Assembly (NCBI RefSeq): GCF_017798005.1
Contig: NZ_CP072548.1
Coordinates: 930,001-994,000, forward strand
Source: Aggregatibacter sp. 2125159857
GTDB lineage: Bacteria > Pseudomonadota > Gammaproteobacteria > Enterobacterales > Pasteurellaceae
Reading direction: 5' to 3'
DNA length: 64,000 nucleotides
Positions 7,085-53,589 of this stretch are shown piece after piece (position 1 is the first letter of the stretch; every line of letters starts with the position of its first letter). The position numbers were made by a program, and so were the translations under genes. The notes below the pieces were generated by a model. The model made no database searches and was not told where the DNA came from. It was given only the letters and a program-made list of their open reading frames with translations.

Positions 7085-7105
7085 AGCAGAAAATTATTTT
7101 GTAAC

Positions 7106-7129
7106 AAGGGGGAGAAATCCCCCTTTTTT
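7106..7129 (+). terminator. Intrinsic terminator after the lipoprotein gene
   Basis: AAGGGGG / CCCCCTT with a 6-base loop and a run of T to 7129. It lies between the lipoprotein gene and the convergent lacZ end; the minus direction lacks a good T run. Confidence 0.85.
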
Positions 7130-7135
7130 CTTGCT

Positions 7136-10337
<3,202 letters not shown>

Positions 10338-10352
10338 CAATAAGGAGCCTCT

Positions 10353-11567
10353 ATGAATAAAACCGTGGGAAGTACACTGCTCGTAGCGGGTACGATGATT
10401 GGCGCAGGTATGTTGGCAATGCCGCTCACTTCTGCAGGTATTGGCTTTGGTGCCACGTTATTTCTTTTGCTCGGACTTTGGACGCTGTTAACCTTTAGTG
10501 CGTTGCTGTTCGTTGAGCTTTACCAAACCGCACCAAGTGATGCCGGCATCGGCACGCTAGCAGAGCAGTATTTCGGTCGTCTGGGACGAATTATTTCCAC
10601 CGCCGTATTAATTGTCTTTTTGTATGCACTCATTGCGGCTTACATCAGTGGCGGCGGCTCTTTGTTGACTGATACGTTGCCAACCATCATTGATCGTGAT
10701 ACTACAAGCAAAGTCGCTGTATTGATTTTCACCCTTTTCTTTGGCGCTTTTATCATTATCGGTACACACAGCGTCGATAAAATGAACCGCGTGTTGTTCT
10801 TTGTGATGATTGCCACATTCGTGATGGTGTTAAGTTTGATGTTGCCGGAAATTAAACTCGATAACTTAATGGCAATGCCCATTGATAATGCGCTGATCAT
10901 TTCCGCCAGCCCGGTATTTTTCACCGCATTTGGTTTTCACGGTTCTATTCCAAGCTTAAACAAATACCTCGGCGGCAATGTCAAATCCTTGCGCATTTCC
11001 ATTTTAGTGGGTTCCGGTATCACCTTATTCGCCTACATTTTATGGCAACTTTCCACTCACGGCTTGCTTACACAAAACGAGTTTCTACAAATCTTGCAAC
11101 AAGATGCCACATTGAATGGCTTAGTCACCGCCACCTTAACCATTACCCAAAGCAGTATGATGGCAAACGCCGTGAAAATCTTCTCCACGTTGGCGTTAAT
11201 CACCTCCTTCTTGGGGGTAGGGCTCGGCTTGTTGGAATGTATTGAAGACTTGTTAAAACGTTCCTTTAACATTCATGCAGGACGTTTCTCTCTAGGGTTA
11301 ATGACATTCATTCCGCCAATCGTCTTCGCCTTATTCTACCCACAAGGTTTTATTTTAGCGTTAGGCTACGCCGGTCAAATGTTTGCGTTTTATGCCGTGG
11401 TTCTTCCGGTTTCGCTGGTATGGAAAGCGCGCCGCATTCACCCGAATTTGCCGTATAAAGTCTGGGGCGGCAAAGTCACATTGATGCTCGTTTTGGTCCT
11501 TGGCGTCATCATTACTTCCATCCCATTCGCCATCCGCGCCGGCTATCTACCGTTTGTGGTGGGTTGA
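10353..11567 (+). CDS. tyrP: Tyrosine-type aromatic amino acid permease
   Basis: A 404-residue, 11-helix permease of the HAAAP family, which imports tyrosine or other aromatic amino acids by proton symport in the inner membrane. The N-terminus GSTLLVAGTMIGAGMLAMPL and the segment TAFGFHGSIPSL are family signatures and line up with E. coli TyrP throughout. TAAGGAG precedes the start by 7 bases. It is divergent from lacZ and sits behind TyrR-like boxes. Substrate is inferred from similarity; tryptophan-specific Mtr is a close relative. Confidence 0.88.
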   Translation: MNKTVGSTLLVAGTMIGAGMLAMPLTSAGIGFGATLFLLLGLWTLLTFSALLFVELYQTAPSDAGIGTLAEQYFGRLGRIISTAVLIVFLYALIAAYISGGGSLLTDTLPTIIDRDTTSKVAVLIFTLFFGAFIIIGTHSVDKMNRVLFFVMIATFVMVLSLMLPEIKLDNLMAMPIDNALIISASPVFFTAFGFHGSIPSLNKYLGGNVKSLRISILVGSGITLFAYILWQLSTHGLLTQNEFLQILQQDATLNGLVTATLTITQSSMMANAVKIFSTLALITSFLGVGLGLLECIEDLLKRSFNIHAGRFSLGLMTFIPPIVFALFYPQGFILALGYAGQMFAFYAVVLPVSLVWKARRIHPNLPYKVWGGKVTLMLVLVLGVIITSIPFAIRAGYLPFVVG

Positions 11568-38206: not shown

Positions 38207-39682
38207 ATGGATTCTGTTGAATTATTGGTCAATGTGACACCAAATGAAACGCGCATTGCCTTAGTGGAAACGGGTTTGCTCAAAGAAGTGCATATTGAAC
38301 GTCAAGGCAAACGCGGTATTGTGGGAAATATTTATAAAGGTCGGGTCACCCGTGTATTACCGGGAATGCAATCGGCATTTGTGGACATCGGGCTGGAAAA
38401 AGCCGCTTTCTTACACGCGTCAGATATTGTATCGCACACCGAATGTGTGGAAGAAAGTGAACAAAAGCAATTTGTGGTGAAAGATATTTCCCAACTGGTA
38501 CATGAAGGGCAGGATATTGTGGTGCAAGTGGTAAAAGATCCGCTTGGCACGAAAGGTGCGCGCCTCACCACCGATATTACCTTGCCTTCCCGTTATTTAG
38601 TATTCATGCCGGAAAATAGCCATGTGGGCGTGTCACAACGCATTGAAAGCGAGGAAGAACGTAATCGCTTGAAAGAACTCACCTTGCCTTTATGCGATGA
38701 ATTGGGCGGTTTTATTATCCGTACTGCGGCTGAGGGAGCGACTGAACTGGATTTGCAACAAGATGCCGAGTTTTTAAAACGATTGTGGCGAAAAGTGCTA
38801 GAACGTCGAGCGAAATATCCAACCCGTTCTATGCTTTACGGCGAATTGGCGCTGACACAGCGTATTCTGCGCGATTTTATCGGTGGCAAATTGGATCGCA
38901 TTCACATTGACTCCCGACTTTGTTTCAATGAAGTGAAACAATTCACCGAAGAATTTATCCCGAATCTCACGGATAAATTGATTTTATACACGGGAAATCA
39001 ACCGCTCTTTGATGTGTACAGTGTGGAAAAAGGCATTCATCATGCTTTAGATAGACGAGTGAATCTCAAATCCGGTGGTTATTTGATCATTGAGCAAACA
39101 GAAGCCATGACCACGATCGACATCAATACCGGTGCATTCGTGGGGCATCGTAATTTGGAAGAAACCATTTTCAACACCAATATTGAAGCCACCAAAACCA
39201 TCGCGCAACAACTTCAACTGCGTAATCTCGGCGGCATCATCATTATTGATTTCATTGATATGCAAAGTGAAGAACACCGTAATCGCGTGTTGGAATCCTT
39301 GCAAGATGCCTTATCGCGCGATCCGGTGAAAACCAATGTGAATGGCTTTACACAACTAGGTTTGGTGGAAATGACCCGTAAACGTACGCGGGAAAGTTTG
39401 GAGCATATTCTTTGTTGCGAATGTCCGGCTTGTCAAGGTCGTGGGCGAGTAAAAACTGTCGAAACCGTATGCTACGAAATCATGCGCGAAATTATTCGTG
39501 TACACCATTTATTTGCCAGCGAACAATTTGTGGTTTACGCCTCTCACGCAGTTGCAGACTACTTAATTAACGAAGAATCCCACGGCTTACTGGCAGAATT
39601 GGAAGTCTTTATCGGAAAACAAGTCCAAATAAAAACCGAACCGTTTTACACTCAAGAGCAGTTTGATGTAGTGGTGATGTAA
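38207..39682 (+). CDS. rng: Ribonuclease G
   Basis: RNase G trims the 5' end of 16S rRNA and cuts some mRNAs. The 491 residues contain an N-terminal S1 domain (GNIYKGRVTRVLPGMQSAFVDIG), the catalytic DIN in TTIDINTG, the second metal aspartate in IIIIDFIDM, and the zinc-link motif CPACQGRG. It lacks the long C-terminal scaffold of RNase E. It is the last core gene before the WYL-headed accessory cluster. Confidence 0.97.
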   Translation: MDSVELLVNVTPNETRIALVETGLLKEVHIERQGKRGIVGNIYKGRVTRVLPGMQSAFVDIGLEKAAFLHASDIVSHTECVEESEQKQFVVKDISQLVHEGQDIVVQVVKDPLGTKGARLTTDITLPSRYLVFMPENSHVGVSQRIESEEERNRLKELTLPLCDELGGFIIRTAAEGATELDLQQDAEFLKRLWRKVLERRAKYPTRSMLYGELALTQRILRDFIGGKLDRIHIDSRLCFNEVKQFTEEFIPNLTDKLILYTGNQPLFDVYSVEKGIHHALDRRVNLKSGGYLIIEQTEAMTTIDINTGAFVGHRNLEETIFNTNIEATKTIAQQLQLRNLGGIIIIDFIDMQSEEHRNRVLESLQDALSRDPVKTNVNGFTQLGLVEMTRKRTRESLEHILCCECPACQGRGRVKTVETVCYEIMREIIRVHHLFASEQFVVYASHAVADYLINEESHGLLAELEVFIGKQVQIKTEPFYTQEQFDVVVM

Positions 39683-39863: not shown

Positions 39864-40817
39864 ATGGCAAAAGAATCCAAGACAATGCACTTTCAATTAG
39901 AAATTTTACGTTTAATTCCAAAACGCAGTTATATCAGCACGCATGAAATCCAACAGAAGCTGGAAGATATGGGATTTTCTCGCGATATTCGTAGCATTCA
40001 ACGTCAATTAAAAAGCCTGTCTGAACAGTTTGATATTGAGTGCAATACTCTCAGCAAGCCTTACAGTTATCGCTGGAAAGAAAATACCAAAGGGTTGGAT
40101 TTGCCGATTTTAAACGAGCAGCAATCCTTGGTGTTAATGTTGGCGAAGCAATATTTAAAAGGCATTTTGCCTGCAAATATTCTCAATTCGATGGAGTCCT
40201 TTTTTAAGCAGGCCGAATATAACTTGGTCTATGATGCCAATAAAAAATCCGGTTCCGAATGGCTAAACAAAGTGGCGATTGCGCCAACCAGCCAACCGTT
40301 ATTGCCCGCCAAAATTGAGCCCGAAATTTTTGCTCAAATCAGCACCGCACTTTATCAAAATCGATTTTTACAGGTGCATTATCGAAGTATTCACGGCAAA
40401 GAGCACAAAGCACAAGTTAAGCCACTTGCTTTGGTGCAACAAGGCCCGAGTAGTTATTTAGTCGCGCAATATGAACATGGCGATATTTTGCATCTTGCTT
40501 TGCATCGTTTGCTTGAGGTTACTGTGAGTACCATGCAATTTGATCGCCCGGATTTTAATTTGAAAGCGTATGTTGAAAGCCAAAAATTCGGTTTTAGTTA
40601 TGGCAGAAAAATTCGCTTAACGTTCAGAGTGGATAAAGCGATTGGTGGATTTTTGACAGAAACGCCATTATCGGTTGATCAAAATGTGAAAGATTGCGGT
40701 AGTGAATACGAAATTTCCGCCACGGTCATTGAAAGTGAAATGTTGAATTGGTGGATTGCGCATTTTGGCGAAAATTATCAAGAAATTGAGCGTGTATATC
40801 TCGAGGACATTTCCTAA
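39864..40817 (+). CDS. WYL-domain transcriptional regulator
   Basis: A 317-residue protein with an N-terminal winged helix (LEILRLIPKRSYISTHEIQQKL..DMGFSRDIRSIQRQLKSL), a central WYL domain (VHYRSIHGKEHKAQVKPLALVQQGPSSYLVAQ, the WYL triad being replaced by SYLV) and a C-terminal WCX-like extension. Relatives such as BrxR and CapW repress defence loci by binding palindromes and may sense nucleotides or nucleic acids. The stop codon is followed at once by the palindrome CGACA-N5-TGTCG, which recurs before two other units of this cluster. I infer that this protein binds those sites. Confidence 0.88.
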   Translation: MAKESKTMHFQLEILRLIPKRSYISTHEIQQKLEDMGFSRDIRSIQRQLKSLSEQFDIECNTLSKPYSYRWKENTKGLDLPILNEQQSLVLMLAKQYLKGILPANILNSMESFFKQAEYNLVYDANKKSGSEWLNKVAIAPTSQPLLPAKIEPEIFAQISTALYQNRFLQVHYRSIHGKEHKAQVKPLALVQQGPSSYLVAQYEHGDILHLALHRLLEVTVSTMQFDRPDFNLKAYVESQKFGFSYGRKIRLTFRVDKAIGGFLTETPLSVDQNVKDCGSEYEISATVIESEMLNWWIAHFGENYQEIERVYLEDIS

Positions 40818-40848
40818 CGACACACATTGTCGCTTTATGTTTTATGAT
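40818..40848 (+). promoter_or_regulatory. WYL-regulon operator and promoter, site 1
   Basis: CGACA-CACAT-TGTCG (40818-40832) starts on the base after the WYL stop codon. The -10-like TATGAT (40843-40848) begins 25 bases after the operator's first base. The operator covers the -35 position, and no good -35 hexamer exists. The next gene starts at 40876. Confidence 0.75.
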
Positions 40849-40875
40849 GAAGCAATCAACAGAGAGGACATTAAG

Positions 40876-41787
40876 ATGAAGCAAATTGTGTATATAGATA
40901 TGGACAATGTTATGGTGGATTTTCCATCTGGTATTGCAAAATTAGATGAGAAAACCAAGCACGAATATGAAGGTCGATATGATGAAGTCGAGGGCATTTT
41001 TAGCTTAATGGAGCCTATGCCAAACGCCATTTCTGCCGTCCATAAATTGATGAAAAAATACCATGTGTATGTCCTTTCTACCGCACCTTGGCATAATCCA
41101 TCTGCTTGGAGTGATAAAGTGAAATGGATTCAGCATTATTTTGGCGAAGAGAAAGGCTCCGCATTATATAAGCGATTAATTTTATCCCACCATAAAAACC
41201 TCAACCAAGGCGATTATTTAATTGATGATCGCACTAAAAATGGTGCGGGAAAATTTCAAGGCGAGCATGTTCATTTTGGTACAGAACAATTTGCTAATTG
41301 GAATTGTGTCTTATCTTACTTAGGTTGTGGGCCTTTTACGCCAAGTGACATTTTGCAAGATTGTTTAAAAAAATCAGCCGCACTTGTGCAAGTTGAAAAT
41401 GAGGAGCAAAGCCGAATCATAGGTGGATTTGCGGATCGCTATAAATGGCAGGTATTTAATTTAGCCTGTGTTTATGCGGATGAGGTAACAACAGACCATA
41501 AAACCGTCTATTTAATTATCAGTCTTCATCAAAGTAACGAATTTAAAATACGCATTGAAGCAATGTGTACTCATATTCAATCTGAATATGAGGTGTTCTT
41601 ACGTTCAAAAGAACAATTAAAACAATACTTCCAACGCCTTTCTGATAAGCCTTTCTTGCATATTGAAAGCTATGCTTATCAACCACTTTATAAAGCAGGG
41701 AATATTTTTGGCATGATGGGAAGAGATAGACAGATTGATGAGATTCTAAAAATGAGAGGGGAGAAAAAGCATGACAGAGAAAAATAA
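40876..41787 (+). CDS. HAD-type 5'(3')-nucleotidase-like protein with unknown C-terminal domain
   Basis: A 303-residue protein. Residues 1-165 resemble 5'(3')-deoxyribonucleotidases (NT5C family of HAD hydrolases): the nucleophile motif DMDNVMVDF near residue 7, YVLSTAPWHNPSAW (motif II region), and DYLIDDRTKNGAGKF (motif IV aspartates). Residues 166-303 (from about SAALVQVENEEQ) match nothing I know. I start at 40876 behind AGAGAGGACA; an upstream in-frame ATG lies inside the WYL gene. It overlaps the next gene by 17 bases, so the two are translationally linked. A role in breaking down a nucleotide signal or dNTPs is a guess. Confidence 0.75.
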   Translation: MKQIVYIDMDNVMVDFPSGIAKLDEKTKHEYEGRYDEVEGIFSLMEPMPNAISAVHKLMKKYHVYVLSTAPWHNPSAWSDKVKWIQHYFGEEKGSALYKRLILSHHKNLNQGDYLIDDRTKNGAGKFQGEHVHFGTEQFANWNCVLSYLGCGPFTPSDILQDCLKKSAALVQVENEEQSRIIGGFADRYKWQVFNLACVYADEVTTDHKTVYLIISLHQSNEFKIRIEAMCTHIQSEYEVFLRSKEQLKQYFQRLSDKPFLHIESYAYQPLYKAGNIFGMMGRDRQIDEILKMRGEKKHDREK

Positions 41788-42481
41788 ACCAATTTGTGTC
41801 GTATTAACCGGTGCTGGGATTAGTGCCGAAAGTGGCATTCCTACCTTCAGAGCGGAAGACGGTTTGTGGGCAGGGCATAAAGTCGAAGAAGTTTGTACAC
41901 CGGAAGCCTTACAAAAGAACCGTGCGAAAGTGCTCGATTTCTATAATCAACGCCGTAAAAATGCCGCTGCAGCTAAGCCCAATGCAGCCCATCTTGCATT
42001 GGTTGAATTAGAAAAAAACTATGATGTCCGCATCATTACGCAAAATGTGGATGATTTACATGAGCGAGCAGGAAGCTCAAATGTGTTGCATTTACACGGT
42101 GAATTAAACAAAGCGCGCAGTAGCTTTGATGAAAGTTATATCGTGGATTGTTTTGGCGATCAGAAATTAGACGATAAAGATCCAAACGGACATCCGATGC
42201 GCCCTTATATCGTCTTTTTTGGTGAAATGGTGCCGATGCTAGAACGAGCTATTGAGATTGTTGAACAAGCGGATGTGGTATTAGTGATTGGCACCTCTTT
42301 GCAGGTGTATCCGGCGAATGGTTTGGTTAATGAAGCTCCACGCAACACGCCGATTTACTTAATCGATCCTAATCCCAATACCGGCTTTGTACGCAAGCAA
42401 GTGATTGCAATAAAAGAAAAAGCCGGGGCAGGCGTGCCGAAGGTGGTGGCAGAGTTATTGGAGAACGTTAAAAACACATAG
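41771..42481 (+). CDS. Sirtuin (NAD-dependent deacylase), zinc-less type
   Basis: The 236 residues contain GAGIS (14-18) and SGIPTFR for NAD binding, QNVD (91-94), the catalytic histidine 109 (HLHG), GTSLQVYPA and IDPNP. Tyr58 and Arg61 (FYNQRR) match the YxxR pair of CobB/SIRT5-type enzymes that remove acidic acyl groups. The four zinc cysteines are absent: the region after HGEL has neither CxxC pair. A CobB-like subfamily without zinc is known, so this is not decay. It overlaps the preceding nucleotidase-like gene, making a two-gene unit behind operator 1. A deacylase or an NAD-consuming defence effector are both possible. Confidence 0.85.
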   Translation: MTEKNKPICVVLTGAGISAESGIPTFRAEDGLWAGHKVEEVCTPEALQKNRAKVLDFYNQRRKNAAAAKPNAAHLALVELEKNYDVRIITQNVDDLHERAGSSNVLHLHGELNKARSSFDESYIVDCFGDQKLDDKDPNGHPMRPYIVFFGEMVPMLERAIEIVEQADVVLVIGTSLQVYPANGLVNEAPRNTPIYLIDPNPNTGFVRKQVIAIKEKAGAGVPKVVAELLENVKNT

Positions 42482-42567
42482 AAAAACGACCGCACTTTTC
42501 ATGTAAATATCGAGTTTAGTATCGCTATGTTGCATGGTTTTGCGGTTGATAAATTAATGAGAAATAT

Positions 42568-43065
42568 ATGCACCCAGTAATCGAATTTTATTTAGAACAA
42601 AGAAAAAGCCAACATAATTTATCTTTGCAAGATATGTGGTCAATGCCAAAAAAAATGATTGGTGATGCTTATTTTTATATTCCTTGGCTTTTACCCGTAA
42701 CAGAGAGTTCAAAATGGAATCGTTCCGTACCAGTTTTTAAGGAAGAAGATCGCGCTTTTTTTATTGGAGATGAAGCAATTCAAAATAAATATTTACATTC
42801 TATTGATTTTATTCTGGATTACTTCTGTTTATATCGTGAAGATAATCAAGTATTCCCAAGACCTGAATTAACTGAACGTAAAGTTTGGCTACGCAATATT
42901 GGGCATGAAAGTAAGAAGATTTCTCGTATTATTCGTAGTTTAAATTATTGTGGTCATCCTGAGTTGGCTAAAAGTTTACAACAACTGGCGATAAAATTAG
43001 GTCAAGAAAAAGGCGTAATTCAAGAAGAAACAATGGAAATTTGGATAAATCTACTTAAACAATAA
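42568..43065 (+). CDS. OGFr_N-domain protein
   Basis: A 165-residue protein that resembles the N-terminal domain of the opioid growth factor receptor family, which also occurs in bacteria with unknown role. Matching features in order are FYLEQRKSQ..LSLQDMW, YIPWLLPV.ESS.WNRSVPVF, DRAFFIGDE, SIDFILDYFCL, WLRNIGHESKKISRIIRSL and ELAKSLQQLA. No signal peptide or membrane span. It lies 86 bases after the sirtuin gene and 7 bases before the next gene. Domain assignment is from pattern; function unknown. Confidence 0.65.
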   Translation: MHPVIEFYLEQRKSQHNLSLQDMWSMPKKMIGDAYFYIPWLLPVTESSKWNRSVPVFKEEDRAFFIGDEAIQNKYLHSIDFILDYFCLYREDNQVFPRPELTERKVWLRNIGHESKKISRIIRSLNYCGHPELAKSLQQLAIKLGQEKGVIQEETMEIWINLLKQ

Positions 43066-43072
43066 GGACAAA

Positions 43073-43792
43073 ATGATGGTAACAGAAGATTTTAAAAAAG
43101 TGGCAGTATCCTTCGCTGGAGGAGATGGCGGAAATCCTAACTCAGATGTTTGGTTTTGTGGGTTAGAATGGGGAATTGGCGATGAAAGCTCTTCGGATGA
43201 TTTTTATGAGAAGTTTAGTTTAAGCCCTAAATTAATACCGCACTCTTGGTTAGAAGATGATTTTGATGGTAGTTGGACTGCTCAATATAATAGAAAAATA
43301 TGTTGGTTTTTGTGGTACTACTACAATTTAGAGTGGAAAAATGGAGAAAGTACGGAGCATTTTGTTAAAACCTATAATGTGCTTTACCCACAAGGTATTG
43401 GTTTTAAATTAAATATGCTACCAATCAATTTTAAAAATAGATCATTGATTAAGTGGAATGAACAATTCATTAAGCTGACTGGATTTGAAACTTTTGATGA
43501 ATATAGAAATTGGTGTGTTGAAAATCGAGGTGCTTTTTACCGTCAACTTATAGATGAATGTAATCCTAAAGTGATTATTTGCACGGGAGTGACAGAAAAA
43601 GATAACTTCTTTAAGTTTTTCACTGGAGAAGCCGTATACGAAGCTAAAGAATTAGAAGAATTTAATATATTCTATCGTAAGTATAAGAATACGTTAATTT
43701 GTGTTTGTCCATTTTTTGGTGGCGCGAGTGGTATCAATTCTTATGACAAAATGGAAACATTAGTTGCTTCGGTAAAAGAATTATGTAAATAA
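43073..43792 (+). CDS. Unknown 239-residue protein, possibly uracil-DNA-glycosylase-like fold
   Basis: I do not recognise this protein with confidence. It has an N-terminal SDVWFCGLEWGIGDES that looks like the first loop of the UDG superfamily (a hydrophobic strand followed by G and E/D), a strand PKVIICTGVT in the middle and a C-terminal strand-loop LICVCPFFGGASGINS where UDGs carry HPS. The residues between are rich in Trp, Tyr and Phe. It follows the OGFr_N gene by 7 bases with AAGGAC as ribosome site, so the two are likely one unit. A second ATG at 43076 could also be the start. Confidence 0.55.
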   Translation: MMVTEDFKKVAVSFAGGDGGNPNSDVWFCGLEWGIGDESSSDDFYEKFSLSPKLIPHSWLEDDFDGSWTAQYNRKICWFLWYYYNLEWKNGESTEHFVKTYNVLYPQGIGFKLNMLPINFKNRSLIKWNEQFIKLTGFETFDEYRNWCVENRGAFYRQLIDECNPKVIICTGVTEKDNFFKFFTGEAVYEAKELEEFNIFYRKYKNTLICVCPFFGGASGINSYDKMETLVASVKELCK

Positions 43793-43820
43793 CGTTTTTA
43801 CCAAGTGTAACGTTGATAGG

Positions 43821-43846
43821 TAAATAGCGACTTCGGTCGCTATTTA
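43821..43846. terminator. Bidirectional terminator with TTCG tetraloop
   Basis: TAAATAGCGAC-TTCG-GTCGCTATTTA is an 11-bp perfect stem with the stable TTCG loop, between two convergent genes. Confidence 0.88.
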
Positions 43847-43849
43847 TCG

Positions 43850-44845
43850 TTATTCTCCTTTCTTAAGCATATGCATAATAAGCCTAATGAGCGTTTCTTT
43901 TTGTTTCGGATCAGATTCGGCAACTAATAAAGTGAGTGCAGCAAGCCCGGTATCATTGATAACCGGATAGCCATTATGATCAAACAAACGCCCATTTCGA
44001 TGTAAAAAATCCACAAATAAAAACGCTCCGCTACGTTTATTACCGTCTGAAAAAGGATGGTTTTTGACGACAAAATACAGTAAATGTGCGGCTTTTGCTT
44101 CAATGCTTGGATAGGCAGGTTCACCAAACACACTTTGATCTAAATTGCCTAAAATGGCAGATAAGCCATCATCTCGTTCACGTCCAAACAGATCACTTGC
44201 TTCGCCTTTTGCCATAAGCTGTGCTTTTAACTCAGCCAGTGCAGAACAGGCTTCGGAATAGGTGGGCAACATACCGCCTTGCTGGGTTTGCGGTTCGGCA
44301 AGTAAACCTTCATCATATTGTTGTAGCCATAAAAATGTATGCGTATAACGGCTGACAATATCCACTAATCCACGACCGCTTTCTAGTGTTAATGCGGAGG
44401 AATTTGCCGTTTTTTGAATAAGTGCAAGCGCTTGTTCCAGTTCATGTGCATTTTGCTTTAAACGCTGTTGGTTAATGGTATAGCCTTGAGTAAGATACTC
44501 TTTTAAACGAGCGGTTGCCCAAATTCTAAAATTTGTTGCTGATTTAGATTTCACTCGGTAGCCAACAGAAATAATTGCATCCAAATTATAATGTTTAACT
44601 TTACGAGTAACCTGTCTTTTTCCTTCTTGGCGAACTACCGAGAAATCCTCGGAGGTTAAATTTTCATCAAGTTCAGACTCATTAAAAATATTCCTTAAAT
44701 GTAGGCTAATATTATCTGAGCTAGTATCGAAAACATTTGCCATTTGCGCCTGAGAAAGCCAAACCGTATCCTTTTCAAATCTGACTTCCACTTGTGTCGT
44801 GCCATCTTGCGCTTGGTAAATTTCAATCGGGTTTTGGTTATTCAT
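43850..44845 (-). CDS. RhuM-Fic/Doc fusion protein
   Basis: The 331-residue protein has an N-terminal RhuM (virulence protein) domain (DTVWLSQAQMANVF, HYNLDAIISVGYRVKSKSATNFRIWATARLKEYL) and a C-terminal Fic/Doc domain with the intact motif HPFSDGNKRSG (263-273), which transfers AMP or another group from a nucleotide to target proteins. A coiled linker lies between. The gene is divergent from the FtsK-gamma/sirtuin operon and shares with it the gap that holds operator 2. RhuM-Fic proteins are common single genes in mobile regions; no antitoxin is evident beside it. Confidence 0.9.
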   Translation of the reverse strand: MNNQNPIEIYQAQDGTTQVEVRFEKDTVWLSQAQMANVFDTSSDNISLHLRNIFNESELDENLTSEDFSVVRQEGKRQVTRKVKHYNLDAIISVGYRVKSKSATNFRIWATARLKEYLTQGYTINQQRLKQNAHELEQALALIQKTANSSALTLESGRGLVDIVSRYTHTFLWLQQYDEGLLAEPQTQQGGMLPTYSEACSALAELKAQLMAKGEASDLFGRERDDGLSAILGNLDQSVFGEPAYPSIEAKAAHLLYFVVKNHPFSDGNKRSGAFLFVDFLHRNGRLFDHNGYPVINDTGLAALTLLVAESDPKQKETLIRLIMHMLKKGE

Positions 44846-44965
44846 ATTCTTCCTTTAAATAATAAAATATATGTATATATAAACAGGTAAAGAAATGTAT
44901 TGCAATACTGTATAACCTTAATTTTCAAAAAATTTTTGCAAAAGAATTGCTTCTTAAATTTTATA

Positions 44966-44997
44966 GCGACAAAAATTGTCGCTTGTTTGCATATCAT
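44966..44997. promoter_or_regulatory. WYL-regulon operator and promoter, site 2
   Basis: GCGACA-AAAAT-TGTCGC (44966-44982) is a perfect 6-bp inverted repeat containing CGACA-N5-TGTCG (44967-44981). The -10-like TATCAT (44992-44997) begins 25 bases after the first C, the same spacing as at sites 1 and 3. It stands between RhuM-Fic (minus) and the FtsK-gamma-like gene (plus) and could affect both. Confidence 0.75.
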
Positions 44998-45069
44998 TTT
45001 TTATAAAAGAGAGATTTTTTACTTTTTACCATTCTCTCAATCCATTTGTCATCGCAAAACAGGAGAAAA

Positions 45070-45273
45070 ATGATGCCAATGAAAGTCACTTTTAATCGAG
45101 ATCCGCTTTTTGAAGATATAAAAAAATTTGTACAACAACAAAAAATTGCGTCTTGCTCAATGATTCAACGACGATTTAGGTTGGGTTTTAATCGAGCGGT
45201 GCAAATTTTAGCGCAATTAGAAGAAGCCGGTGTTATTTCAACAATGAAAAATGGGCAGAGAAAAGTACTATGA
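45070..45273 (+). CDS. Stand-alone FtsK-gamma-like winged-helix protein
   Basis: A 67-residue protein. DPLFEDIKKFVQQQ, IASCSMIQRRFRLGFNRA, and QILAQLEEAGVIS align along their full length with the gamma domain at the C-terminus of the DNA translocase FtsK, which reads the polar KOPS sequences and activates XerD. Here it is a whole protein with no motor. AGGAG lies 5 bases before the ATG at 45070. The stop overlaps the next gene's ATG (ATGA), so it is translationally coupled to a sirtuin. It may guide the system to chromosome-specific motifs or act as a small regulator. Confidence 0.82.
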   Translation: MMPMKVTFNRDPLFEDIKKFVQQQKIASCSMIQRRFRLGFNRAVQILAQLEEAGVISTMKNGQRKVL

Positions 45274-46103
45274 AAAATGATTTGAACTATGCTGTGGAGC
45301 TTATCCGCAAATCGGATGGCATTTTGATTACTGCCGGTGCAGGCATGAGTGTGGATTCAGGTTTACCGGATTTTAGAAGTAGTGGAGGATTTTGGAATGC
45401 CTATCCGGCATTTCGTGAACATAACTTGAATTTTCAGGATATTGCGACACCGATGTCCTTTGAAACGCATACGGAGCTGATCTATTGGTTTTACGGACAC
45501 CGTCTAGTGCAATATCGTAACACTACGCCACATGAAGGTTACCAAATTTTAAAACGCTGGGCAGCTGAAAAACCACATGGTTATTTTGTGTTTACCAGCA
45601 ACGTAGATGGCCATTTTCAAAAAGCCGGATTTGAAGAAAAACGGGTTTATGAAGTGCATGGCACGCTAGAACGTATGCAATGTGTTCATGATTGCCATCA
45701 TCAAAGTTGGACGGCGAAGGATTTTCAACCGGAAGTGGATAATGTTAACTTGCGCTTAACGAGCCCTTATCCACGCTGTCCTTTTTGTGGTGGTTTAGCG
45801 AGACAAAATGTCTTAATGTTTGACGACTGGTTTTACAATAGCAATTATCAAGATTTGAAACGAACCTCCTTAGACCAATGGATTAAAGGCGTGCCGAATT
45901 TAGTGGTGATTGAACTCGGCGCAGGCAAAGCGATTCCAACGGTTCGATATTTTTCCGAACGCACGGCAAAAGCCAAGAAAGCCGGTTTTATTCGCATTAA
46001 TCCGCAAGACGGTGGCGTATCAAAACATCATTTTTTAGGGCTGGATATGACCGCACTTGAGGCTTTAAAAGCAATCGATGTTTTATTGAATCAATCAACA
46101 TAA
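45270..46103 (+). CDS. SIR2-family NAD-dependent protein, zinc type
   Basis: The 277 residues have GAGMSVDSGLPDFRSSGGFW (NAD site), FTSNVDGHFQKAGF, the catalytic histidine in EVHGTLE, and two cysteine pairs for zinc (CVHDC and CPFC). After that comes NVLMFDDWFYN and GAGKAIPTVR in place of the usual GTS motif. It is distinct from the zinc-less sirtuin at 41771. It overlaps the FtsK-gamma-like gene by 4 bases and is followed after 10 bases by a PP2C gene, all behind operator 2. Deacylase or NAD hydrolase activity cannot be told from sequence. Confidence 0.87.
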   Translation: MKNDLNYAVELIRKSDGILITAGAGMSVDSGLPDFRSSGGFWNAYPAFREHNLNFQDIATPMSFETHTELIYWFYGHRLVQYRNTTPHEGYQILKRWAAEKPHGYFVFTSNVDGHFQKAGFEEKRVYEVHGTLERMQCVHDCHHQSWTAKDFQPEVDNVNLRLTSPYPRCPFCGGLARQNVLMFDDWFYNSNYQDLKRTSLDQWIKGVPNLVVIELGAGKAIPTVRYFSERTAKAKKAGFIRINPQDGGVSKHHFLGLDMTALEALKAIDVLLNQST

Positions 46104-46113
46104 GGAAACCAAT

Positions 46114-46866
46114 ATGCAAAATGTCTGCCAAATCACTTTTTGTCAGCAAATTGGAAAAAATAAAAAGCACAATCAAGATGCGTTATTTAATGGTGAAGCG
46201 GTTTTTCAGTTTAAATTAAAAACAGCAGAAAAACGCGTTGAAAATCGACCGCACTTTATCATTGGCATTGCCGATGGTATTTCCAATAGCAATCACGCGG
46301 AAAAAGCCAGTAAGTGTGTCATGTCGGCGTTGCAAACGATTCAGACATTAAGTCGAAACACCATTCCTTATTTGCAAGATAAATTATCGGAACAGTTGGC
46401 AGACTCCTATTTTGGTTCGGCAACCACATTCGTCGCCGCGGAAATTGATCAACTCAATCAAAAAGCCAAAATTCTCAGTGTGGGCGACAGTAGAGCTTAC
46501 ATTATCGATGAAGCAGGAAAATGGCGACAAATTACAAAAGATCATTCTATTTTGTCCGAATTGTTAGAACTGTCTCCTTATCAAAAAGAAGAAGATTTCG
46601 CCACAATTTATAGCGGCGTTTCTTCTTGCTTGGTTGCCGATTATTCCGAGTTTCAAGATAAAATCTTTTATCAGGAAATTGAAATTAAACAGGGTGAAAG
46701 CCTGTTACTTTGTTCTGACGGCTTGACCGACGGGCTTTCAGATGAAATGCGCGAAAAAATTTGGCAGAAATATCCCGATGATAAAGCTCGCCTCACGGTT
46801 TGCCGCAAGATGATTGAAAGGCAATCGTTTTCGGATGATTTGTCGGTTATAATCTGTGCGTTTTGA
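46114..46866 (+). CDS. PP2C-type serine/threonine phosphatase
   Basis: A 250-residue PPM-family phosphatase. Metal and catalytic motifs in order are KKHNQDA, IGIADGIS (the DG metal pair), FGSATTFVAAEI, VGDSRAYII, TKDHS, LLLCSDGLTDGLSD and SDDLSVIICAF. It has no membrane or sensor domain. TAAGGAAACC gives a good ribosome site 10 bases after the sirtuin stop. A protein kinase partner is not in the window, so the substrate may be phosphorylated by another kinase or the enzyme may act on a cluster protein. Confidence 0.92.
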   Translation: MQNVCQITFCQQIGKNKKHNQDALFNGEAVFQFKLKTAEKRVENRPHFIIGIADGISNSNHAEKASKCVMSALQTIQTLSRNTIPYLQDKLSEQLADSYFGSATTFVAAEIDQLNQKAKILSVGDSRAYIIDEAGKWRQITKDHSILSELLELSPYQKEEDFATIYSGVSSCLVADYSEFQDKIFYQEIEIKQGESLLLCSDGLTDGLSDEMREKIWQKYPDDKARLTVCRKMIERQSFSDDLSVIICAF

Positions 46867-46903
46867 TTCATGTTAAAAAATATTCTAAGGAACCTAAATT
46901 ATT

Positions 46904-48229
46904 ATGAGTGATGAAAAAGCAAAAATACTTAAGATTAAAGATGTATTTGATTTGAAGTTGAGCATTCCTGATTATCAAAGACCATACAAATGGACAGTTA
47001 AAAATGTTCAGCAATTGATTGATGATTTACTTACACATTTTCATCATCAGAAACAAGTTTACCGTATTGGAACTGTGGTGATACATAAAAATGGGGAAAT
47101 ATTCGATATTGTTGATGGTCAACAACGTTTAATTACACTTTCATTGTTACTTTATTATTTAAATGATCAAAATAAACCGTCAAATAAATCTTTATTAGAT
47201 GAAACTATAACACATACTGTTAGTAAGAATAATATAATTAATAATTATAATTTCATTAAAAATTATTCTGTTTCCGATAAAGATAAATTTAAAAATTATA
47301 TTTTAGAGATTTGCGAAATGGTTCGTATTGAACTTGATGATTTAGATGAGGCTTTCCAATTTTTTGACTCGCAAAACTCAAAAGGGAAACCTTTAGAATC
47401 TTATGATTTACTTAAAGCGTATCATTTAAGAGAAATGAATGATAAACCCAAAGAGATTATTCACAATTGCGTTGAACGTTGGGAAAAGTCTGCACTTTCT
47501 CAAGAAATCAATAACTTAGATAAAATTATCAACTATATTCTTTTTAGATTACGTCGATGGCATTATCAAGAAAGCGGAGAGGTTTTTACATCGGACGAGC
47601 TGGAGACATTTAAAGGTGTATCAGAAAGTGCTACCTATCCTTATCTTAGCCCAGTGTTTGCAACAAAGGTTGTAGAGAAATTAGCACAACAAAATCCTAT
47701 GTTTTGTCATCCAAGATTTGTGAAGACAAGTTTTCAAACGATACAAACTCTAATAAATGGTGAGCAATTTTTTGATTATGTTCAGTATTATGCTGAAAGC
47801 TATGAAAAATTATTTAAAGAAGGAATTGGACTTGTTGATAAAGTGATAAAAATTAACGGTAAAGATCTAGGAAAGGGTGTAAATACTTTTCTCAATAATC
47901 AAGATTATTGTTATAGAGTAGGGGATAAGTATTTAAAAAATTTATTTGAATGCATAGTGTTATTCTATTTTGATAAGTTTGGTGAAGTACATTTAGATGA
48001 ATTTATAAATAAAGCATTTTTATGGGTTTATCGAATTCGTTTTGAATATCAGCGTATTACTTTCAAAACTATAGAAGATGAAGCTCACTCAAAAAATGGA
48101 TTATTTAATCATATAGAGAAATCCTCTACACCAATACAAGTGCTGAGATATACCTCAGTAATACGTGAAAATAAGTTTGGTAACATAGACAAGAAAATAA
48201 AGGAAGTTTTTGGAGTGGAAAATGAGTAA
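46904..48229 (+). CDS. DUF262 protein (GmrSD N-domain type)
   Basis: A 441-residue DUF262 protein: YQRPYKW (24-30), RIGTVVIHKNG, the ParB/Srx-fold motif DGQQR (71-75) and FFDSQNSKGKPLESYDLLKAYHL. In GmrSD enzymes this domain binds and hydrolyses NTP to drive cleavage of modified DNA. The usual C-terminal DUF1524 nuclease is missing here; the second half is helical and unlike any domain I know. It overlaps the next gene, a full DUF262-DUF1524 protein, by 8 bases, so the two probably act together. AT-rich, no uptake signal. Confidence 0.85.
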   Translation: MSDEKAKILKIKDVFDLKLSIPDYQRPYKWTVKNVQQLIDDLLTHFHHQKQVYRIGTVVIHKNGEIFDIVDGQQRLITLSLLLYYLNDQNKPSNKSLLDETITHTVSKNNIINNYNFIKNYSVSDKDKFKNYILEICEMVRIELDDLDEAFQFFDSQNSKGKPLESYDLLKAYHLREMNDKPKEIIHNCVERWEKSALSQEINNLDKIINYILFRLRRWHYQESGEVFTSDELETFKGVSESATYPYLSPVFATKVVEKLAQQNPMFCHPRFVKTSFQTIQTLINGEQFFDYVQYYAESYEKLFKEGIGLVDKVIKINGKDLGKGVNTFLNNQDYCYRVGDKYLKNLFECIVLFYFDKFGEVHLDEFINKAFLWVYRIRFEYQRITFKTIEDEAHSKNGLFNHIEKSSTPIQVLRYTSVIRENKFGNIDKKIKEVFGVENE

Positions 48230-50219
48230 TGCTAAAGAATATGTAAAAACATTAACCATATCTGATTTATTTAATGATGAGAATAAATGTAAGTATATTA
48301 TTCCAATCTACCAACGTAATTATGCTTGGGGTGATAATGAAATTAGTTCATTGCTTCAAGATATAAAAAATGCTTGTGAACAAAATAAAGAACAAGATAA
48401 AAATTATTATATTGGAAGCTTAGTTGTCTATTGCCGAGAAAATGGTGATTTTGAAGTAATTGATGGCCAGCAAAGACTAACAACATTCACGTTAATAATG
48501 CATTATCTTGGTAAATTAAGTTTTAGAAATGTTTCTTTTGAACATCGAGATGAATCTGAACGAGCATTATCCAATCTTAATTCTGAAAAATTACCAAGTA
48601 ATTTTTCACAAGCATTAAAAACAATTAAGAAAGTAATTTATGAATGGGGAAATAATAAAGATGAAATTGTAAAATTCCTTTTGGATAAAGTTGAAATTAT
48701 CCGAACTGAAGTACCAGAAGGTACAGATTTAAACCATTATTTTGAAATAATGAATACCCGTGGAGAACAGCTTGAAAAGCATGAAATTCTAAAAGCTCGT
48801 TTGATGAAGGTGTTGCCAACAGCTATTGAACAATCATTATTTGCAAAAATCTGGGATGCATGCTCAGATATGAGTCGTTATGTTGTGATGGGATTTGATT
48901 CTGAATTAAGAAAAGTCATTTTAGGTAATGATTGGAGAAAAGTACGTGGATTTTTTAAGACTATTTTGAATGAAAATTCTAAAAATTCTGAAAATTCTGA
49001 AGAACCTGAAAATAGTATCGTAAAACTTATTAATGCCGAGGTAAAAATAGAAAAAAATGAAGAGCAATCACAGGATAAATATGATGGCGAATTTACTTCA
49101 GTAATTGATTTTCCTAATTTCTTAATGCATGTTTTACGAATTTATTTAGAAATGTTTGATAAGTATAAATATTCTACCCCAAATGATCCATGCAATGTGT
49201 CATTAGATGAAAAATTACTATTAAAATCATTTGAAGGTAAGTTTGAAGGAAAACCTAAAAAAGTTAGAATATTTATTTATACATTATTGGTTTGTCGTTA
49301 TTTATTTGATTTATATGTGATTAAATCTAATATGATTCGAACTGATTATGAAAACTGGTCGTTATGGAAAATAGTTAAAGGAAAATCAGGTTATTACTAT
49401 AAAAATGCATTTGGTAGTTATAAAAATGTGTCTGTCGACAATAGTTTAGATAAAAATGATGATGAAGCACTTAATGATGCAGATCCTACAAAAAAAGCCG
49501 TGATGTTACTTTCAATGTTCCATGTTTCTAACCCATCTCGTATTTACAAAAACTGGTTGTATGCTGTATTACGTTGGTTATTTAATAATAAGGATAATAT
49601 AAAGTCTGATGAATATGTTAAGTTTCTAGAAAAATTGTGTGATGATTTCTATTTTGGTAATAACTGCCAAGGAAAAGATATTACAGAGATTATATTAGAA
49701 AAAGTGGAATTTGAGTTAAACTCAGGAGATAAAAAAGATTGGGATGATGGAGTAAATGTTCCTAACTTTGTATTTAATCGATTAGATTATCAGTTATGGA
49801 AACTTTTCCACGAACAAGAACAAGAACGAGAACAAGAACAAGAACAAAGAGTAGAAATTTTGTCAGAAAATGACAAATGGTTAACTATTAAAAATAAAGA
49901 GGCTATTTGGAAAAAGTTTAGATTTACCTTTAGAAGTTCAGTAGAGCATCATTATCCACAGCATCCTAGTGTTGGAGATGAATTAGAGTCAGGATTAAAT
50001 GATTTTGGTAATTTGTATCTACTTTCTCAAAGTAAAAATTCTAGCTTGGGTAATTCTTCTCCTGAAGAGAAAAAAAAGCATTATCGTAATAATGAATACG
50101 ATAGTCTGAAACAAGCTATCATGATGAACTACAATGAGTGGACTGAAAGGGAGATAGAGGAGCATGGAAAAGAAATGCTCGAAATTCTAAATCAACCGCT
50201 ATCTAAGGCTAATTCCTAA
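48222..50219 (+). CDS. DUF262-DUF1524 GmrSD-like restriction protein
   Basis: The 665 residues begin with DUF262 (YQRNYAW 30-36, YYIGSLVVY, DGQQR 81-85, YFEIMNTRGEQLEKHEILKA). They end in a DUF1524/HNH-like region with VEHHYPQHP (about 574-582) and NDFGNLYLLS, the His and Asn of the His-Me finger fold, although the usual HIxPQ reads HHYPQ. Such proteins (GmrSD, SspE type) cut glucosylated or phosphorothioate-marked DNA or sense it. I start at 48222 behind TGGAG; it overlaps the preceding DUF262 gene. A Glu/Gln tract (HEQEQEREQEQEQ) precedes the nuclease. Its stop codon abuts operator 3. Confidence 0.87.
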   Translation: MSNAKEYVKTLTISDLFNDENKCKYIIPIYQRNYAWGDNEISSLLQDIKNACEQNKEQDKNYYIGSLVVYCRENGDFEVIDGQQRLTTFTLIMHYLGKLSFRNVSFEHRDESERALSNLNSEKLPSNFSQALKTIKKVIYEWGNNKDEIVKFLLDKVEIIRTEVPEGTDLNHYFEIMNTRGEQLEKHEILKARLMKVLPTAIEQSLFAKIWDACSDMSRYVVMGFDSELRKVILGNDWRKVRGFFKTILNENSKNSENSEEPENSIVKLINAEVKIEKNEEQSQDKYDGEFTSVIDFPNFLMHVLRIYLEMFDKYKYSTPNDPCNVSLDEKLLLKSFEGKFEGKPKKVRIFIYTLLVCRYLFDLYVIKSNMIRTDYENWSLWKIVKGKSGYYYKNAFGSYKNVSVDNSLDKNDDEALNDADPTKKAVMLLSMFHVSNPSRIYKNWLYAVLRWLFNNKDNIKSDEYVKFLEKLCDDFYFGNNCQGKDITEIILEKVEFELNSGDKKDWDDGVNVPNFVFNRLDYQLWKLFHEQEQEREQEQEQRVEILSENDKWLTIKNKEAIWKKFRFTFRSSVEHHYPQHPSVGDELESGLNDFGNLYLLSQSKNSSLGNSSPEEKKKHYRNNEYDSLKQAIMMNYNEWTEREIEEHGKEMLEILNQPLSKANS

Positions 50220-50250
50220 CGACACCTTTTGTCGCACCCCTCACTAAAAT
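50220..50250 (+). promoter_or_regulatory. WYL-regulon operator and promoter, site 3
   Basis: CGACA-CCTTT-TGTCG (50220-50234) starts on the base after the stop codon of the DUF262-DUF1524 gene, just as site 1 starts after the WYL stop; both read TTCCTAACGACAC and TTGTCGC around the spacer. The -10-like TAAAAT (50245-50250) begins 25 bases after the first C. Confidence 0.75.
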
Positions 50251-50282
50251 ACTCCTTACTAACCCAGTAAGGAGTATTTTTT
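50246..50282 (+). terminator. Perfect 15-bp hairpin that hides the AAA gene's ribosome site
   Basis: AAAATACTCCTTACT (50246-50260), loop AACCC, AGTAAGGAGTATTTT (50266-50280), then TT and the ATG at 50283. For transcripts coming from the upstream DUF262 genes it is a strong terminator and also buries the Shine-Dalgarno AAGGAG. A transcript begun at site 3 would start near 50257, inside the 5' arm, so the full hairpin could not form. Confidence 0.85.
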
Positions 50283-52334
50283 ATGTCCGAATATAAATTA
50301 AACCCACCGACAGTGTCTTCTTATACTGAAAATATGATGCTTAAAGTTTTATTTGAGCATAAAGGTTTTTCTGAAGTGTTTCGGGAGAGTAGTTGGCGAA
50401 GTGATGAAATTGCCAGTGCGTTTGGGCTGCCTGAAGAATTAGAGAATGATAAAAATCTACGCACGGTTGCTCGTCGGCTTTTAAAAGCGCGTTATAAAAC
50501 ACTTCAAAAATCCACCGCACTTTTACCGGAGTTATGGAAACAGGCGTATGAAAATTTGGCAACGTTGGCAGAATTTTTGCAACTGAATCCCGTTGAACAG
50601 GAACTTCTCCGCTTTGCCATGCATTTACGCAGTGAAGTAGCTATGCGAGATTTGTTTGAGTACTTGCCGAAATCGGATTTACAAAGAACGGCTGCGATCA
50701 TGGCGGATTTACTTAAACAGCCGAAAAATCAGATTCTATCTGCCTTAAAGAAAGGCAGTAAACTCGATGCTTATGGCCTGATTGATCGCGATTATCGCCC
50801 CGATAGTGTGCATGATTATTTAGATTGGGGCGAAACCTTAGATTTTGATGAATTTGTGACACAACCACTAAACGAAAACGTCCTATTAAAATCTTGTACG
50901 GAAGTCGCTCAAGTGCCAAGTTTGCAACTGGATGATTTTGCCCATATTGCCGGCATGAAAGAGATGATGTTGACCTATTTGCAACAGGCACTAAAACATC
51001 ATCGGAAAGGTGTGAATCTTTTAATTTATGGCGTGCCTGGCACCGGTAAAACCGAATTTGCCGGATTGCTTGCACAAGCATTAGGGATTTCGGCGTATAA
51101 CATTACTTACATGGATTCTGACGGTGATGTCGTGAAGGCAGAGCAACGCCTGAACTACAGTCGTCTTGCTCAAACGCTATTGAACGGCAAGCAGGCACTT
51201 TTAATTTTTGATGAAATTGAAGATGTTTTTAACGGCTCGTTTATGGAGCGTTCTGTTGCGCAAAAAAATAAAGCATGGACAAATCAGTTGTTGGAAAACA
51301 ATAACGTGCCGATGATTTGGTTATCCAATTCGGTACACAGCATAGATGCGGCTTTTTTACGTCGCTTTGATTTTGTGTTTGAAATGCCGGATTTACCGTT
51401 AAAAAATAAATCGGCGTTAATTTCGCAGCTGGCAGGCGGTAAATTAACGGCAGAATATGTGCAGCATTTTGCCAAAGTGCGGTCGCTTTCGCCGGCGATT
51501 TTAACGCGCGTGTTCAATGTAGCAAATGCGGTTGATAACGGCAAAAAAGCCTTTTCTGACGTTTTGCTTACGCTATTTAATGAAGCCTTACAGGCACAAG
51601 GTAAAAAGAAAATTGAGCCGTTGGTGGAAAGTAAACTGAGTTATCAGCTTGAGTGGGTTTCCTGCAATGAAAATATTCATAAAATCAGTGAAGGATTAAT
51701 GCGAACCAAGAAAGGTCGAATTTGTTGTTATGGCCCGCCGGGCACAGGGAAAACCGCGTGGGCAGGTTGGCTTGCCGAGCAGTTAGATATGCCGTTGTTG
51801 CTGTGCAAAGGGTCTGATTTACTCGATCCTTATGTGGGCGGAACAGAGCAAAAAATTGCGGAGGCATTTGAATCGGCGAAGCGTGATAATTGTTTGCTAG
51901 TGCTGGACGAAGTGGATACCTTCCTGTTTTCACGCGACGGTGCAGAACGTAGTTGGGAACGTTCTCAAGTCAATGAGATGTTGACACAAATTGAGCGTTT
52001 TGAAGGTTTAATGGTGGTTTCAACGAATTTGATGAATGTGCTGGATCCGGCAGCATTACGGCGTTTTGATTTAAAGCTAAAATTTGATTATTTAACGCCA
52101 CAACAGCGTTTGGATTTTGCTAAACAACAAGTGGAAAAATTGAATTTGGGCGCATGGGATGAACCCCATTCAAAACGTATTCTTGAGCTGAATTTACTCA
52201 CACCGGGCGATTTTGCTGCCGTTGCGAGACGACACAATTTTTCACCCTTTGAGAATCTAGAAGAGTGGTTAGACGCATTGCGTGGTGAATGTCTTGTGAA
52301 ACCGGAATTTTCCCGCAAAAAGGTCGGTTTTTAA
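50283..52334 (+). CDS. Double AAA+ ATPase
   Basis: The 683-residue protein has a helical N-terminal domain (1-215) and two AAA+ modules. Module 1 has Walker A GVPGTGKT (250-257), Walker B LLIFDE (306-311) and LRRFD (359-363). Module 2 has Walker A GPPGTGKT (484-491), Walker B LLVLDEVDTF and LRRFDL. Both sets of catalytic residues look intact. Such tandem ATPases of unknown role often lie next to WYL regulators in accessory regions. The gene is the last of the cluster, is insulated by a hairpin and has its own operator. Unlike the DUF262 genes it carries uptake signals (50513 and 51477). Remodelling or sensing function is unknown. Confidence 0.88.
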   Translation: MSEYKLNPPTVSSYTENMMLKVLFEHKGFSEVFRESSWRSDEIASAFGLPEELENDKNLRTVARRLLKARYKTLQKSTALLPELWKQAYENLATLAEFLQLNPVEQELLRFAMHLRSEVAMRDLFEYLPKSDLQRTAAIMADLLKQPKNQILSALKKGSKLDAYGLIDRDYRPDSVHDYLDWGETLDFDEFVTQPLNENVLLKSCTEVAQVPSLQLDDFAHIAGMKEMMLTYLQQALKHHRKGVNLLIYGVPGTGKTEFAGLLAQALGISAYNITYMDSDGDVVKAEQRLNYSRLAQTLLNGKQALLIFDEIEDVFNGSFMERSVAQKNKAWTNQLLENNNVPMIWLSNSVHSIDAAFLRRFDFVFEMPDLPLKNKSALISQLAGGKLTAEYVQHFAKVRSLSPAILTRVFNVANAVDNGKKAFSDVLLTLFNEALQAQGKKKIEPLVESKLSYQLEWVSCNENIHKISEGLMRTKKGRICCYGPPGTGKTAWAGWLAEQLDMPLLLCKGSDLLDPYVGGTEQKIAEAFESAKRDNCLLVLDEVDTFLFSRDGAERSWERSQVNEMLTQIERFEGLMVVSTNLMNVLDPAALRRFDLKLKFDYLTPQQRLDFAKQQVEKLNLGAWDEPHSKRILELNLLTPGDFAAVARRHNFSPFENLEEWLDALRGECLVKPEFSRKKVGF

Positions 52335-52542: not shown

Positions 52543-53589
52543 ATGAAAAAAATCGTTTTATTTTTCTTTTTATGCCTCATTCTGCTTGCCGGTGCAGGAT
52601 TTTGGGGATTTCAGCAATTACAACAATTTTTGCATCAACCGGTGAATGTGCAAAACGATCAATTATTAACCATAGAACGTGGCACAACCGGCAATAAATT
52701 GGTGGCATTGCTGGAAAAAGAACGCATTTTAGAGGATGCGGATCGGCTGTCTTGGTTATTAAAATTGCATCCTGAGCTCAATAAAATTAAAGCCGGCACC
52801 TATTCGCTTAATGGGATTAACACCGTAGAAGCGTTACTGAAATTGTTAAATTCCGGCAAAGAGGCGCAATTTTCGCTGATGTTCGTTGAAGGCGAAACCT
52901 TTAAAACCCTACGAAAACGGCTTGAAAATGCACCGCACTTGAAGCAGACATTGCAAGGGAAGTCCAATGATGAGGTTTTCGGACTGCTTGATATAGATAC
53001 GAACCTCAATAAAAATTTAACAGAAAGCCACGTTATCGATGGCTGGATTTACCCAGACACTTATAATTACACGCCGAATTCTACCGACTTAGAACTGTTG
53101 CAACGCGCTGCAGAACGCATGAAAAAAGCGTTGGAGAAGGCATGGAATAATCGGGATAAAAATTTGCCTCTAGCCGATCCTTATGAAATGTTAATTCTTG
53201 CGTCCATCGTGGAAAAAGAAACCGGCATCGCCGCAGAGCGTCCCCAAATTGCCTCGGTGTTTATTAATCGTTTGAAAGCCAAAATGAAGCTTCAAACCGA
53301 TCCGACAGTAATTTACGGCATGGGTGAGGATTACAGCGGCAATATTCGTAAAAAAGATCTCGAAACGCCGACCCCTTATAACACCTATGTGATTGACGGT
53401 TTACCGCCAACGCCGATTGCCATGCCAAGCGAAGAGGCATTACAAGCCGTGGCGCATCCTGCGCAAACGGAATTTTATTATTTCGTTGCCGACGGCACGG
53501 GCGGTCACAAATTCAGTCGGAACTTGAATGAACACAATAAAGCGGTGCAGGAATATTTACGCTGGTACCGCCAACAAAACGGAAAATAA
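52543..53589 (+). CDS. mltG: Endolytic murein transglycosylase MltG
   Basis: MltG cuts nascent peptidoglycan at the inner membrane and may end strand growth. The 348 residues start with a membrane anchor ([22 protein letters not shown]), then a LysM-like region, and the YceG domain with the catalytic glutamate in [10 protein letters not shown] and the signature [16 protein letters not shown]. The stop is one base before the tmk start; mltG-tmk-holB-tatD is the standard gammaproteobacterial order. Confidence 0.96.

Follow-up and report, generated by a model that had tools for sequence, protein, structure and literature searches.

The DNA analyzed here, a stretch of 64,000 nucleotides from Aggregatibacter sp. 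2125159857 (the window; contig NZ_CP072548.1, positions 930,001 to 994,000), contains a gene cluster that is headed by a WYL transcription factor and carries three copies of the palindrome CGACA-N5-TGTCG, referred to here as the box. This raises the question of which protein reads the box and whether its binding turns the cluster off or on. The initial annotation, made from the letters of the window, took the sites as operators of one regulon and left open whether the factor represses by occlusion or activates. The evidence leans to activation. We consider it likely that the cluster is a DriD-type activator regulon, with the box as the operator of the WYL protein at the cluster head and as a replacement for the −35 element.

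An exact scan of the window found the box at the three positions annotated and nowhere else: box 1 (CGACACACATTGTCG, 40818–40832) adjoins the WYL stop codon, box 2 (CGACAAAAATTGTCG) is at 44967–44981, and box 3 (CGACACCTTTTGTCG, 50220–50234) directly follows a stop codon. Dinucleotide shuffles of the window had a mean of 0.03 boxes, and 0 of 100 reached three. The −10-like hexamers TATGAT (40843–40848), TATCAT (44992–44997) and TAAAAT (50245–50250) each start 25 bases past the first base of a box (offset 25), as described, and the stop codon before sites 1 and 3 is TAA in both cases. As for the flanks said to be shared by sites 1 and 3, TTCCTAACGACAC is indeed present at both, and TTGTCGC is common to all three sites. 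The whole genome of 1,999,512 bases contains four exact boxes, the fourth of which (1623400) lies inside what appears by eye to be mraY coding sequence. When the box was combined with TAnnAT fixed at offset 25, as in the genome scan that the annotation had proposed, the only perfect matches in 2.0 Mb were the three in this cluster. Allowing one mismatch in the combined pattern added three more, namely the reverse reading of box 2, 1623400 and 1280761. The site at 1280761 lies outside the cluster and consists of a one-mismatch box followed by TAAAAT at offset 25. Boxes with at most one mismatch were at background level (42 versus 36 for the reversed pattern), and no wider regulon emerged in this genome at up to two mismatches, where only the three perfect sites stood out. 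The original observation was right and understated.

The relation of the box to the −10 element was examined in 82 Pasteurellaceae sites, the window included, which a simple 75% ungapped identity cut reduced to 46 non-redundant sites. Selection of the sites fixes the box letters in this alignment but not the −10 register. TAnnnT starts at exactly offset 25 in 36 of the 46 sites. The next best offset has 8, while the 2000 shuffles averaged 1.9 and never exceeded 9 at any offset. The ten sites without TAnnnT at 25 include three with a −10-like hexamer at 26 (L040, L057, L062) and two where TATAAT lies at 25 on the opposite strand and faces an OGFr gene (L062, L066). The annotation had noted the lack of a −35 consensus, and this held throughout the aligned set: the best match at spacers of 16–18 in the 36 promoters was 1/6 in one case, 2/6 in 24 and 3/6 in 11, and an extended −10 (TGn) was present in 0 of 36. 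Shuffled flanks gave a −35 match of 4 or more in 14%. By the usual sigma-70 rules, a promoter with a poor −35 and no extended −10 should have little strength unaided, an argument in favour of activation.

The presence of the box follows that of the WYL gene. In a survey of 140 Pasteurellaceae genomes, own included (WYL matches with expect values (E) up to 1e-15, AAA ATPase matches up to 1e-60), 47 had a WYL match. Loci were fetched from 39 other WYL genomes, the remaining 7 having only fragmentary matches. An exact (strict) box was present in 36 of these 39, at WYL identities down to 40%, showing that the sites are conserved where the WYL gene is conserved. The other three are L052, L054 and L064, and L052 and L064 have a one-mismatch box with the −10 at 25. 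Genomes with a WYL match hold 135 boxes in 47 genomes (mean 2.87), compared with 112 in 93 (mean 1.20) for those without (Mann-Whitney p 7e-8). The reversed-pattern control gave 48 (1.02) and 115 (1.24), respectively, which puts the box mean of the WYL-less genomes at the control level. This co-occurrence, the conservation with WYL and the absence elsewhere in the genome support the proposal that the sites form a single regulon with the WYL gene at its head. The AAA gene was found in 31 of the 140 genomes, every one of which also has a WYL match (a fragment in genome G029). A strict box lies 61–95 nt before the AAA start in 25 of 30 fetched AAA loci, the window included, with TAnnnT at 25 in all 25. 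In G077 and G065, AAA is 43 kb and 29 kb away from WYL, respectively, and has kept both box and −10, which points to action in trans. By comparison, the WYL gene itself is rarely preceded by a box: no strict box lies within 250 nt upstream in 35 of 37 intact Pasteurellaceae loci. Instead, a box starts at most 3 nt past the WYL stop codon in 18 of the 37.

For comparison with known WYL regulators we used excerpts of PMC12340889 (a preprint), PMC10693628, PMC11804915, PMC9122588, PMC9122601, PMC9122589 and PMC12409362. The DriD consensus is ATACGAC(X)7GTCGTAT, and the probe used contains CGACAGTAACTGTCG (PMC12340889). DriD of Caulobacter crescentus, a homodimeric WYL activator responsive to single-stranded DNA (ssDNA), thus has the same palindrome, CGAC-N7-GTCG, as the cluster boxes. 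DriD sites lie over the −35, share the same distance from the −10, and have −35 matches of 1–2 of 6; an operator that covers a poor −35 and keeps a constant spacing to the −10 is likewise what we found in Pasteurellaceae, with a looser arrangement outside this family. In the DriD-activated operon promoter beside driD, the box matches at 9/10 positions, and offsets 25 and 21 share the highest score for the Caulobacter −10. The excerpts describe DriD as having no control over its own gene, similar to the lack of box control over the regulator gene in most Pasteurellaceae loci.

The WYL protein of the window (39864–40817, 317 residues; Pfam WYL E 2.6e-12) has its nearest named match in Aggregatibacter segnis (96%). 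It shares with DriD a winged helix-turn-helix (HTH), a helical linker (helices 85–134 between the HTH and WYL), a WYL domain and a C-terminal domain, all in one chain of about 320 residues. In an alignment of 99 WYL sequences, among them that of the window and some from loci retrieved in duplicate, R43 and R47 of the recognition helix are kept in 98, and R215 and Y198 of the WYL domain in 99 and 96, respectively. Structural comparison with VIA-align placed DriD in the top row (13.8 and 13.1), nearly tied with PafBC (12.9), CapW (12.4) and BrxR (12.3). The alignments in the DriD comparison covered 235 residues with 8tpk and 263 with 8tp8, both at high root-mean-square deviation (rmsd). Searching the PDB with the WYL sequence alone yielded no match.

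We propose that the three promoters, whose −10 is good but which lack both a −35 and an extended −10, would hold RNA polymerase poorly alone. A signal, most likely ssDNA from damage, phage or plasmid replication, would bind the WYL domain and free the winged helices, as in DriD. The WYL protein would then sit on the box as a homodimer, on the face opposite sigma-4, and anchor polymerase at the fixed 25-base register, turning the cassettes on jointly. The regulon is probably ssDNA-responsive.

Several observations weigh against this proposal. Besides the near tie in VIA-align, the long alignments have an rmsd above 9 and the structure model is modest (pLDDT 76.8, pTM 0.50). Profile searches gave E of 0.2–0.8 for DriD versus 0.11 for BrxR, all weak. 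By this measure, the WYL protein does not resemble DriD more closely than BrxR, and its similarity to DriD is not significant. The didA and bapE sites of DriD are too degenerate for their −10 to be placed, and the fixed spacing between box and −10 could partly be inherited from one ancestral promoter. A strict box is missing from five of the 30 AAA loci, in one case by a single mismatch, and 36 of the 99 aligned WYL sequences have none in their stretch, some stretches being short. A scan of named genomes yielded 75 loci, including Vibrio, Photobacterium, Idiomarina, Lysobacter and many Betaproteobacteria; outside Pasteurellaceae, a strict box was present in only 21 of 51 scanned WYL loci. These outside loci hold 31 box sites versus 1–2 for control patterns (0.81 Mb), but only 14 of the 31 have a −10-like hexamer (TAnnnT or 5/6) at 25 or 26 on either strand. 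Among the 29 non-redundant outside sites, TAnnnT is found at 26 in seven and at 25 in none. Finally, 2 of 37 Pasteurellaceae and 5 of 51 outside loci have a box before the WYL gene itself, as a repressor controlling its own gene would.

That last point bears on the strongest alternative, repression as by BrxR and CapW, in which a WYL dimer on the box blocks the −35 until phage infection or a nucleic-acid ligand derepresses the cassettes. BrxR of Acinetobacter is a repressor. Its palindrome, according to the excerpts, also has 5-nt spacing and lies over a predicted −35. Similar to the WYL protein here, BrxR and CapW are WYL regulators encoded beside defence genes and have palindromic operators, with 5-nt spacing for BrxR. 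Both E. fergusonii BrxR and CapW repress, but their operators belong to the promoters of their own genes and lie at the −10 or downstream of it. In E. fergusonii, the BrxR box is just downstream of the −10 of the repressed brxR promoter. CapW, with sites that overlap the −10, is a repressor of its own gene as well. Here, in contrast, several cassettes have boxes in a fixed register without a −35. No box is upstream of the window WYL, and neither a −35 of its own nor an extended −10 was found in any of the 36 aligned promoters, which leaves little basal promoter to repress. The single register in 36 of 46 sites and the identity of the operator with that of an activator also speak against repression, which we regard as unlikely. 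DriD is preferred as the model since 35 of 37 WYL genes have no box upstream, the distance to the −10 is fixed and the −35 is missing. The initial annotation had suggested BrxR and CapW as the analogy. DriD fits better in both operator and geometry.

PafBC and SiwR of mycobacteria are WYL activators that act at about −26, and PafBC is similar in fold. PafBC differs in being a heterodimer and, in the excerpts, in not binding its promoter DNA without polymerase. Instead of PafB and PafC as a pair or a fused chain, the locus genes scanned include one WYL gene of 317 residues, and the genome-wide WYL search covered matches with E up to 1e-15. SiwR differs in having a 19-bp imperfect palindrome between the −10 and −35. 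VC1772, upstream of ddmDE in Vibrio cholerae, is a WYL protein beside a defence operon that it is suspected to regulate; the text consulted mentions no operator. Among the papers listed by a literature search, and in excerpts of PMC9503650 and PMC7159879, none was recognized as describing this cluster or regulon.

The boxes might also bind another factor, such as an unlinked regulator or the stand-alone FtsK-gamma winged helix encoded inside the cluster. FtsK-gamma is a DNA-binding domain. Since box number tracks WYL, and the boxes of the WYL-less genomes G016 and G018 sit in cluster remnants, we find another factor very improbable. FtsK-gamma as the box binder was rejected, as several box loci have no FtsK-gamma match in the fetched stretch (e.g. 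L055, L056, L068). Least credible of all is that these perfect 5-bp inverted repeats, two of them directly after stop codons, do not act as operators but form RNA hairpins or terminators or belong to a mobile repeat. Against this, the −10 keeps a fixed register relative to the box, the three one-mismatch boxes examined (L052, L064 and L176) have changes on one side and no compensatory ones, and a separate hairpin does a terminator-like job at site 3.

Boxes in WYL-less genomes were inspected in 12 of 112 cases. Those examined in G016 and G018, of the same genus, lie in broken remnants of the cluster; the other 10 are inside open frames of at least 60 residues, two of which are below 100. In G001, which has WYL, a strict box (L087 4273–4287) is located apart from the WYL locus and in no such frame. 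G029 retains only the C-terminal part of WYL (L079 14052–14465), together with intact AAA, SIR2b and PP2C genes (4771–10795) and three boxes. The loss of the WYL N-terminal part in this genome was considered as a test of sign and did not separate activator from repressor.

Beyond activation by a DriD-type WYL protein as such, the boxes may define a plug-in regulon, where an ssDNA-sensing activator turns on swappable sirtuin, restriction-like, uracil-DNA-glycosylase (UDG)-like, nuclease and AAA cassettes. We give this extension an even chance. Every cassette would have the same activator-only promoter without a −35, and a gene arriving with a box or gaining one would join the response, a scheme that would have spread over Gamma- and Betaproteobacteria. 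The cassettes behind boxes do differ and include NT5C/SIR2, FtsK-gamma/SIR2/PP2C, AAA, OGFr, PDDEXK and LRR. A strict box is before the OGFr_N gene in L040, L047 and L061, and in divergent orientation in L062 and L066. Its place in L040 and L047 is either the interval from SIR2a to OGFr or the sequence ahead of OGFr. The segment bearing it is absent from the window (where SIR2a and OGFr are separated by 42482–42567) and has one mismatch in L039, indicating that cassettes gain or lose boxes. With a looser −10 match of 4/6, boxes also precede relatives of AAA in L114, L117, L129, L138 and L153, relatives of PP2C in L123 and L128, and a UDG-like gene in L114. These assignments took the longest downstream open reading frame (ORF) and a −10 match of 4/6, and some are chance. 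The DriD targets named in the excerpts are didA, bapE, recJ and dnaG, unlike the local, modular sirtuin, restriction and repair-like cluster here, and WYL control of defence operons in the excerpts is mostly local repression. If the plug-in regulon is real, one activator would coordinate several different modules, and the DriD operator would have passed from use in a DNA-damage response to use in a defence-like island. The exact box-plus-register pattern would predict which genes belong to the response, and the ssDNA signal would be directly testable.

The AAA leader has a further element. A hairpin with a T-run (50246–50280) starts inside the −10 of promoter 3 and folds at −19.1 kcal/mol from the −10 versus −5.5 from the predicted start (50257). 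Among 22 folded Pasteurellaceae AAA leaders, 10 (the window, L037–L041, L044, L045, L048 and L049) have an 11–16 bp hairpin with a T-run and a left arm beginning in or beside the −10. Their energies are −16.9 to −20.2 kcal/mol from the −10 and −4.1 to −6.7 from the predicted start, and the pairing is kept by four different stem sequences. The other 12 leaders have no hairpin of such strength (−4.1 to −12.0 kcal/mol). Read-through RNA from upstream would form this hairpin, while RNA from the box promoter would mostly lose it. The hairpin may therefore be a terminator that insulates AAA; with its −10 embedded in it, AAA in part of the Pasteurellaceae would answer to the activator alone.

The cluster lies between an RNase E/G family gene (38207–39682) and a YceG-like gene (52543–53589). 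Its features are on the + strand except for a Fic/RhuM gene (43850–44845) on the opposite strand, assigned by family match, which is kept in many relatives and has no box of its own in the window. Behind box 1 are the genes for an NT5C-like protein (40876–41787; Pfam NT5C E 7.6e-12), the CobB-like sirtuin SIR2a (41771–42481; Pfam SIR2 E 4.7e-44), which matches NCBIfam deacylase models below their cut-offs, an OGFr_N-domain protein (42568–43065; Pfam-type domain match) with no box directly before it in the window, and orf239 (43073–43792), which has no Pfam match and models as a UDG fold. Box 2 is followed by a stand-alone FtsK-gamma winged helix of 67 residues (45070–45273; Pfam FtsK_gamma E 7.9e-20), the sirtuin SIR2b (45270–46103; Pfam SIR2 E 1.5e-21), a PP2C phosphatase (46114–46866; Pfam PP2C_2 E 1.5e-07) and, by domain matches, two GmrSD-type proteins, one with GmrSD_N/DUF7834 (46904–48229) and one, type IV restriction-like, with GmrSD_N and GmrSD_C (48222–50219). 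Box 3 precedes the double AAA ATPase (50283–52334; Pfam AAA E 2.9e-41), which is box-linked in most relatives having it.

Some WYL loci showed additional features. Outside the family, L141, L152, L154, L156 and L165 have a strict box 61–91 nt before WYL, mostly with no −10 in register, and these five WYL genes are possibly a self-controlling subgroup. FtsZ/tubulin-like proteins are encoded in L117 (11001–12080) and L067 (13547–14176), and FtsK-gamma in others, which makes a link to cell division possible. In L130, a DUF2779 protein with a weak Cas4 match (5951–7465) is encoded just upstream of WYL, behind a box, and an ORF in L144 (8466–9953) has a start similar to that of this protein.

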